From the NCBI GenBank assembly GCA_005878615.1, contig VBLT01000108.1, forward strand, positions 1 through 34,441: a stretch of 34,441 nt of DNA, read 5' to 3'. The notes beneath the pieces are model-generated. The model saw nothing but the letters and a program-made list of their open reading frames with translations. It was not told the origin of the DNA and did not search any database. Position 1 is the stretch's first letter. Each line of letters opens with the position of its first letter. A program made the position numbers and the translations under genes. This DNA is from Methanobacteriota archaeon. GTDB taxonomy: Archaea; Thermoplasmatota; Thermoplasmata; RBG-16-68-12. Below, piece after piece: positions 14,532 through 15,738 of the stretch.

Positions 14532-15581
14532 ATGCTCGACGCGCGCGCCGTCGCGGCGGTGGACCCGGGAGGGATGCGGGAAATCATCGCGTCGCTTCCC
14601 GATCAGCTGTCGGCGGGCATGAAGGTCGGCGAATCGACTCGAGTCCCGATTGAAGAGGCCCAAAGGATCTTCATCGTCGGCATGGGCGGTTCCGCAATCG
14701 GCGGCGACGTGTTCGCCTCATGGATTGCGGACCGCGCGAAGGTCCCGATCCAAGTCGTCCGGGATTATCGGATTCCGGCATATGGCCGTCCCGAGGACCT
14801 CTTGATCGCCGTGTCGTACTCCGGCAACACCGAGGAGACGCTCGCGGCGACGACCCAGGGCCTCAAGCTTGGGTGCCGCGTCGTTGCAATCACCTCCGGA
14901 GGCACGCTCCGCGATCTCGTGCGCGCGAACGACATGCGCGTGCTGCCGGTCCCGACCGGACTTCCTCCTCGCGGGGCCTTCGGCCACCTCTTCGGAATCC
15001 TCTCGGGGATCGGCGGCGAGTGGGCCATCGGAAATCTCACGGACGAACTCGGACAAGCCATCAATCACCTCCGTTCGCTCCGGAAGGCGCTTCGTCCCGA
15101 GAGCGGGGTGCGGTCGAACCGAGCGAAGTCCCTCGCCCTCCGAATCCGGTCGACGGTCCCGGTGACCTACGGGGCCGGTCCCTTCGTCGCGATCGCCCGC
15201 CGCTGGCAGACGCAGCTCAATGAGAACGCGAAGGTCCTCGCGTTTTCGTCGACCTTCCCGGAGGCCGACCACAACGAGCTCGTCGGATGGGTCGAGGACG
15301 CCCGCGCCCGGACGCACCGCGCGATCCTCCTCCGAGACCGCGACGAAGCGCCGGACCTCCGACGCCAGCTCGACATCACGGTCTCCCTCATGTCCCGCAA
15401 GGCGAAAGTGGAGCAGGTCCACGATGAGGGACCGACGCTCGTGAGTCGGATGCTCGGGACGCTGTACCTCGGCGACTACGTGAGCTTGTACCTCGCGGTC
15501 CTTCGGCGGGTGGACCCGCTCGTCCTGAAGCCGATCCAGACCTTGAAGGCGAAACTCGCGGAGAGCCATCGAAAGGGCTGA
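14532..15581 (+). CDS. Bifunctional phosphoglucose/phosphomannose isomerase
   Basis: IFIVGMGGSAIGGDV, VSYSGNTEETLAA, EADHNELVGW SIS-domain motifs of archaeal PGI/PMI. Confidence 0.9.
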   Translation: MLDARAVAAVDPGGMREIIASLPDQLSAGMKVGESTRVPIEEAQRIFIVGMGGSAIGGDVFASWIADRAKVPIQVVRDYRIPAYGRPEDLLIAVSYSGNTEETLAATTQGLKLGCRVVAITSGGTLRDLVRANDMRVLPVPTGLPPRGAFGHLFGILSGIGGEWAIGNLTDELGQAINHLRSLRKALRPESGVRSNRAKSLALRIRSTVPVTYGAGPFVAIARRWQTQLNENAKVLAFSSTFPEADHNELVGWVEDARARTHRAILLRDRDEAPDLRRQLDITVSLMSRKAKVEQVHDEGPTLVSRMLGTLYLGDYVSLYLAVLRRVDPLVLKPIQTLKAKLAESHRKG

Positions 15582-15582
15582 A

Positions 15583-15701
15583 CGCCGAGGGGGAGAGTTT
15601 CAGGCAGCCGTCATCAGAGCGGCGGGAGCCATTTGAACTCCCGAGGGCTTACGCCCACCAGCTCTCCAGGCTGGCGCCCTACCGGACTAGGCGACCTCGG
15701 C
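15583..15701 (-). tRNA. tRNA-Ser(GGA) with a T-loop (59/60) intron
   Basis: Minus strand: GCCGAGG acceptor, D-arm, CCAGC-CTGGAGA-GCTGG anticodon arm, variable arm TGGGCGTAAGCCCTC, GGGAG-TTCAAA[35-nt intron]T-CTCCC, CCTCGGC-G; mature length 84 nt. Confidence 0.9.
15597..15631 (-). other. tRNA-Ser intron in T-loop, position 59/60
   Basis: BHB: GGGAG-TTCA-(AAT)-GGC...GCC-TGAA-(ACT)-CTCCC, a 4-bp central helix with two 3-nt bulges. Confidence 0.88.
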
Positions 15702-15730: not shown

Positions 15731-15738
15731 GTATAAAG
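15731..15738 (-). promoter_or_regulatory. TATA box for tRNA-Ser
   Basis: CTTTATAC on the minus strand about 35 nt upstream of the tRNA 5' end. Confidence 0.55.

Follow-up and report, generated by a model that had tools for sequence, protein, structure and literature searches.

A serine tRNA gene interrupted in the T-loop

The 34,441-nt stretch of DNA analyzed here (hereafter the window) contains a tRNA-Ser(GGA) gene that is interrupted by a 35-nt intron at position 59/60, within the T-loop. Read along the minus strand from 15701 to 15583, the gene begins GCCGAGG TC GCCTAGTCCGGTAGGGC G CCAGC CTGGAGA GCTGG T and continues GGGC GTAA GCCC TC GGGAG TTCAAA, followed by 35 nt and then by T CTCCC CCTCGGC G. 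The elements of the gene, its predicted splice motif and its surroundings are as follows.

15583..15701, minus strand: tRNA-Ser(GGA) gene, exons plus intron, 119 nt (sequence, in silico splicing)
15632..15701, minus strand: exon 1, positions 1-59 including the long variable arm (sequence, in silico splicing)
15597..15631, minus strand: intron, 35 nt, at T-loop position 59/60 (folding, relatives, intronless orthologues)
15583..15596, minus strand: exon 2, comprising T60, T-stem strand CTCCC, acceptor strand CCTCGGC and discriminator G73 (in silico splicing)
15665..15667, minus strand: anticodon GGA (ARAGORN, spliced form)
15638..15642, minus strand: 5' strand of the T-stem, GGGAG, which is also the outer helix of the bulge-helix-bulge (BHB) motif (fold)
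15634..15637, minus strand: BHB central helix, exon strand TTCA, pairing with TGAA at 15602-15599 (fold, intron comparison)
15631..15633, minus strand: 5' bulge AAT, with the predicted cut at 15632^15631 (geometry)
15628..15630, minus strand: BHB inner helix, 5' strand GGC (fold)
15603..15605, minus strand: BHB inner helix, 3' strand GCC (fold)
15599..15602, minus strand: BHB central helix, intron strand TGAA (fold, intron comparison)
15596..15598, minus strand: 3' bulge ACT, with the predicted cut at 15597^15596 (geometry)
15624..15630, minus strand: intron segment GGCTCCC, resembling the 3' T-stem strand and able to form an alternative hairpin with GGGAGTT (fold)
15732..15737, minus strand: TATA-box-like TTTATA, about 31 nt upstream of the tRNA gene (sequence, relatives)
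14532..15581, plus strand: bifunctional phosphoglucose/phosphomannose isomerase (SIS domain), convergent neighbour

Once 15631-15597 is removed, the remaining 84 nt form a tRNA whose acceptor, anticodon and T stems are all perfect, and ARAGORN recognizes it as a normal tRNA-Ser(gga). The junctions fold as a strict BHB, GGGAG-TTCA-(AAT)-GGC...GCC-TGAA-(ACT)-CTCCC, with the 4-bp central helix, two 3-nt bulges and flanking helices of the hBHBh' form. When this structure was imposed, all 24 of its 24 pairs were Watson-Crick (seven in the acceptor stem, five each in the anticodon stem and T-stem, four in the central helix and three in the inner helix). An earlier sequence-only reading of the locus had proposed these intron boundaries and this geometry, together with a 7-nt loop TTCAAAT, an 84-nt product, a euryarchaeal, Thermoplasmata-type host and the lack of an anticodon-loop intron in the same tRNA, and the imposed fold, the in silico splicing and the genome data agree with it on each of these points. 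Dinucleotide shuffles of the intron reproduced four of four central pairs together with at least three inner pairs in 0.1-0.2% of cases, a figure that stands before conservation of the motif in ten species is counted.

Two structural features count against functional splicing. The precursor folded as a BHB-bearing cloverleaf has a predicted energy of -56.3 kcal/mol, as compared with -57.3 kcal/mol for the unconstrained optimum, so that free folding slightly favours a hairpin in which GGGAGUU pairs with GGCUCCC of the intron; the inner helix, moreover, has just 3 bp and gives way to an internal loop.

Two further readings of the intron itself were rejected: a box C/D RNA (TGATGA...CTGA), as the boxes vary (TGACGA, TAATGA, GGGCGA) and their spacing is too short, and an unspliced tRNA with a 9-nt T-loop closed on the intron's GGCTCCC, as the 3' strand of the acceptor stem lies beyond the intron.

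Detection and copy number

Run on genomic DNA, ARAGORN places the gene at 15698-15615, with a wrong 3' end at 15615, and the match to Rfam family RF00005 (31.8 bits) ends at 15639; no Rfam family besides tRNA matched at the locus. The expectation that tRNA finders might overlook the gene thus did not hold here, where both programs detect it and misread its T-arm and acceptor stem, but it did hold for copies in relatives (e.g. G024 and Lutacidiplasma), which ARAGORN misses. For annotation, this means that ARAGORN mis-bounds or misses such genes, and the genomes then appear to be without a serine tRNA.

A second, intact tRNA-Ser(GGA) had been named as an observation that would overturn the splicing interpretation. 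RF00005 identified 32 tRNA genes in the assembly, none of the others having a GGA anticodon, and a GGA tRNA-Ser pattern and a whole-gene search each matched in a single place; the assembly is 85% complete, which leaves some room for a second GGA gene. Other serine tRNAs, checked in G001, G003, G007, G012, G015 and G018, carry UGA or CGA anticodons. The interrupted tRNA-Ser(GGA) gene is conserved and apparently indispensable.

Conservation and covariation of the splice motif

We performed a whole-gene search over 80 related genomes. The same gene with an intron in the same place was found in eight further genomes of the genus (G001, G002, G003, G005, G007, G009, G012 and G018) and in G024, from another family of the order, which brings the intron to ten species, nine of them, including that of the window, in the genus. 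Intron length in these relatives ranges from 32 to 37 nt, and every one of them preserves the central and inner helices; the third inner pair, C-G within the genus, is replaced by A-T in G024. The first 60 nt of the gene are 91-100% identical between the window and eight further species, and relatives are likewise T/A-rich at the position of the TATA-like element. The comparison with tRNA-Ser(GGA) genes of related genomes that the earlier reading had called for also located the exon junction: intronless orthologues from other families of the class (L041-L059) read through it as an uninterrupted TTCAAATCTCCCCCTCGGCG, exactly as predicted.

Among the collected T-loop introns, position 57 and its intron partner form an A-T pair in 15 cases and a G-C pair in nine; mismatches at this position (98 A.G and three A.A) are confined to G156 and the Lutacidiplasmatales-type group. 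The related genomes G031 and G035 differ by A/G at position 57, with a matching change in the intron. These substitutions point to maintenance of the exon-intron pairing by covariation.

Two intron forms at one locus

In ten genomes of the genus, the tRNA-Ser(GGA) gene instead has an uninterrupted T-loop and an intron at the canonical position 37/38. The T-loop-intron form and the anticodon-intron form never occur together in a genome of the genus, every one of which has one or the other. Whichever form is present, the same isomerase gene is next to it or close by; this gene adjoins tRNA-Ser(GGA) in most members of the genus and, within the order, in some further families. In a tree of the isomerase gene, a neighbour that may itself recombine, the two intron forms are interspersed, implying at least five changes, and monophyly of the T-loop-intron form is rejected (p-AU 4e-6). 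In two genomes of family f3, G028 (L274) and G023 (L275), the isomerase gene contains a single in-frame TGA, which may reflect decay, frameshift or recoding.

Remnants of one form accompany the other in several genomes. In G015 (L077), 47 nt of the T-loop-intron form remain behind the anticodon-intron form, and in G006, G011 and G014 a 5' stump of the T-loop-intron form precedes it, so that the direction of change in these lineages was from the T-loop form to the anticodon form. Overall, relics beside a complete anticodon-intron tRNA-Ser(GGA) were observed at L077, L078, L079 and L080. A split or permuted tRNA, which the 3' fragment in G015 might suggest, was rejected, because a full anticodon-intron tRNA-Ser(GGA) lies about 250 nt upstream and identifies the fragment as a relic. 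These relics show that one tRNA-Ser(GGA) gene was replaced by another in place.

Distribution across the order and class

To survey tRNA-Ser, we used a serine-specific T-loop-insertion pattern that requires GGGAG/CTCCC and fixed acceptor letters, so that its counts are lower bounds for tRNA-Ser. Interrupted genes were found in 17 of 37 genomes of the order and in 105 of 400 genomes drawn from the class, and a reversed control pattern gave zero matches among those listed. Interruption of tRNA-Ser genes in the T-loop is thus widespread in the class, and the description of the intron as unusual owes more to published accounts than to the genomes. Nearly all sampled members of family f15 (Lutacidiplasmatales by record names) have T-loop insertions, most of them in two tRNA-Ser genes. 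The position 57 pair in f15-type introns is nearly always an A.G mismatch, and the EndA endonuclease is again a loop-less alpha'2 enzyme. A scan of named genomes matched f15-type genes to 'Thermoplasmata archaeon' and Candidatus Lutacidiplasma records, the genus of the window to the soil 'Euryarchaeota archaeon' EA_24 and EA_5 (G002 and G009), and a few further genes to Woesearchaeota.

Several variants were observed during this survey. In nearly all sampled Lutacidiplasmatales-type genomes, tRNA-Ser(GGA) and tRNA-Ser(CGA) each carry a T-loop insertion of about 33 nt (e.g. L127, L128, L184 and L199); many of these insertions have strong inner helices but a conserved A57.G mismatch in the central helix. 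The tRNA-Ser of G031 (L091/L112) has two introns, in the anticodon loop and in the T-loop, and that of S2_100 (L152) combines a T-loop intron with an apparent D-loop insertion of about 30 nt. Very short T-loop insertions, of 13-14 nt, in G030 (L098) and G026 (L099) keep the central helix with almost no inner helix, and the Woesearchaeota-labelled L130, L144 and L191, a separate lineage, have T-loop insertions with a perfect central helix.

Splicing enzymes encoded in the genome

The EndA of the genome is a single chain of 350 residues with two N-terminal and two C-terminal endonuclease domains. Its closest structures in the PDB are those of Methanopyrus (5x89) and A. fulgidus (2gjw/1r0v); it aligns end to end with A. 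fulgidus EndA, and the catalytic Tyr/His/Lys lie in the second N+C repeat. Aligned members of the class conserve the active-site Tyr, His and Lys of A. fulgidus EndA as well as the Arg with which it binds the bulge, residues whose roles have been described (PMC12397907). At the loop preceding LSLLE the alignment with 1r0v is gap-free, and chain 3p1y is ten residues longer there; a CSL insertion has been described (PMC6379350), and 3p1y is, from its length and that description, presumably the CSL-insert form of the A. fulgidus enzyme. No CSL or ASL insertion is present by the active site of the window's EndA, and the loop has the same length in aligned class members. The sequence thus classifies EndA as a fused, alpha'2-type enzyme without a crenarchaeal specificity loop, the architecture of which suggests a homodimer in solution; a Thermoproteales-type (alpha beta)2 EndA with CSL was not found in the genome. 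RtcB is also encoded (567.7 bits). Archaeal EndA recognizes the BHB whether or not a tRNA body is attached, and a minimal BHB lacking that body is cut by the homodimeric EndA of Ferroplasma, also a member of the Thermoplasmata (PMC8707768), findings that count against an enzymatic obstacle to cleavage in the T-loop.

Proposed splicing pathway and alternative explanations

We consider it highly probable that the insertion is a functional archaeal tRNA intron at a non-canonical position, which EndA would excise before RtcB ligates the exons, a splicing route that we infer from the motif, its conservation and the encoded enzymes. The transcript of the tRNA-Ser(GGA) gene would carry one non-canonical BHB intron at 59/60, with the T-stem as outer helix and a central helix formed by T-loop bases 54-57 and the intron's 3' end. 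The fused alpha'2-type EndA would cleave after the second nucleotide of each 3-nt bulge, and RtcB would join the exons, closing the T-loop as TTCAAAT. The predicted product would be the cell's tRNA for UCC and UCU serine codons, and transcription, cleavage, ligation and charging of tRNA-Ser(GGA) would all be expected to take place.

The intron may alternatively be the scar left by an integrative element, or by duplication of part of the tRNA 3' end, and be tolerated through splicing, with any role lying in the destruction of an integrase attachment site. We regard this as unlikely, although several observations are in its favour: at its start the intron has GGCTCCC, which looks like a copy of the T-stem strand; a repeat of the tRNA 3' end lies within 400 nt downstream in four of 33 intronless loci and in none of 127 T-loop-intron loci, a contrast that is not independent, since the four repeats fall in about two families; and in Caldiarchaeum tRNA introns have been proposed to derive from mobile elements (PMC3293823). 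The T-stem mimic is nonetheless changed in G024 (AGGACTCC), and the explanation concerns origin or benefit, which makes it compatible with a functional intron. The repeats themselves, located 50-220 nt downstream of the intronless genes L041, L047, L048 and L050, resemble remnants of attachment sites.

Regulated splicing, in which the GGGAGUU/GGCUCCC hairpin would delay EndA and make the supply of tRNA-Ser(GGA) conditional, appears very improbable: the free-folding preference for the hairpin (1.0 kcal/mol) is within model error, and the retention of GGCTCCC in nine of nine genus members has another cause in the need of GGC for the inner helix. Least probable of all is a decaying pseudogene whose T-loop was broken by a small insertion while another tRNA reads its codons, a fate illustrated by G015-like relatives, where the copy was reduced to a 3' relic after replacement by the anticodon-intron tRNA, but at odds here with the near-identity of the first 60 nt, with the retention of the intron pairs and the failure to find a replacement gene, and with the fact that a random insertion would neither preserve a BHB nor covary with it.

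Relation to known archaeal tRNA introns

Position 59/60 is already on record in archaea as one of the non-canonical positions, for which Crenarchaeota and Nanoarchaeota are the main hosts (PMC4090602); the new elements are the lineage and the enzyme type. The published 59/60 introns share with ours their position, BHB motif, short length and splicing by protein, but here the host belongs to the Thermoplasmata, the intron is the only one in its gene, the BHB is strict, and an alpha'2-type EndA without CSL takes the place of the (alpha beta)2 enzyme of the published host groups. Euryarchaeota with alpha4 or alpha2 enzymes have been described as having a single intron, in the canonical position only (PMC4090602), and PMC4033280 agrees on the position; these statements count against the splicing proposed here. 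The 37/38 introns of such Euryarchaeota (alpha4/alpha'2 EndA) have the same strict hBHBh' form, 4-bp central helix, 3-nt bulges and enzyme class, with the difference that the BHB described here lies in the T-arm and not in the anticodon arm.

Non-canonical introns outside the Thermoproteales are likewise known from Asgard archaea (PMC11291895) and from Korarchaeum, which has been named as the sole alpha2 archaeon with such introns (PMC4033280). Asgard genomes have multiple introns, in most of their tRNAs (PMC11291895), whereas our survey covered tRNA-Ser, and the alpha2 EndA of Korarchaeum bears a CSL (PMC4033280) that is absent here. At the Caldiarchaeum tRNA-Thr locus, close relatives likewise differ in intron-bearing forms and tRNA fragments (PMC3293823), while the exchange reported here is of two tRNA-Ser(GGA) forms with different introns across the species of a genus. 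Full-text literature searches, which covered few subscription papers, returned no report of T-loop introns in Thermoplasmatota, and the Lutacidiplasmatales paper does not report them.

The interpretation first put forward for the tRNA-Ser(GGA) intron is thus supported: the T-loop intron is real and conserved and, from comparative sequence evidence, very probably functional. Two broader propositions are, taken together, plausible but tentative: that several orders of Thermoplasmatota splice tRNA-Ser T-loop introns with CSL-less alpha'2 endonucleases, and that splicing in the Lutacidiplasmatales-type group proceeds even with a three-pair central helix and the conserved A57.G mismatch. If both are true, the accepted dependence of intron position and motif breadth on endonuclease type would break down, and T-loop introns may persist by destroying the tRNA-Ser attachment site favoured by integrases. 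Switching between intron forms at one locus provides recent examples of the gain and loss of tRNA introns. In reviews, intron position is linked to endonuclease type; here a T-loop intron occurs beside a CSL-less alpha'2 enzyme, and more than 100 further T-loop-interrupted genes were collected from the class, which opens this co-evolution rule to a direct test that would need a single purified enzyme and a few RNAs.
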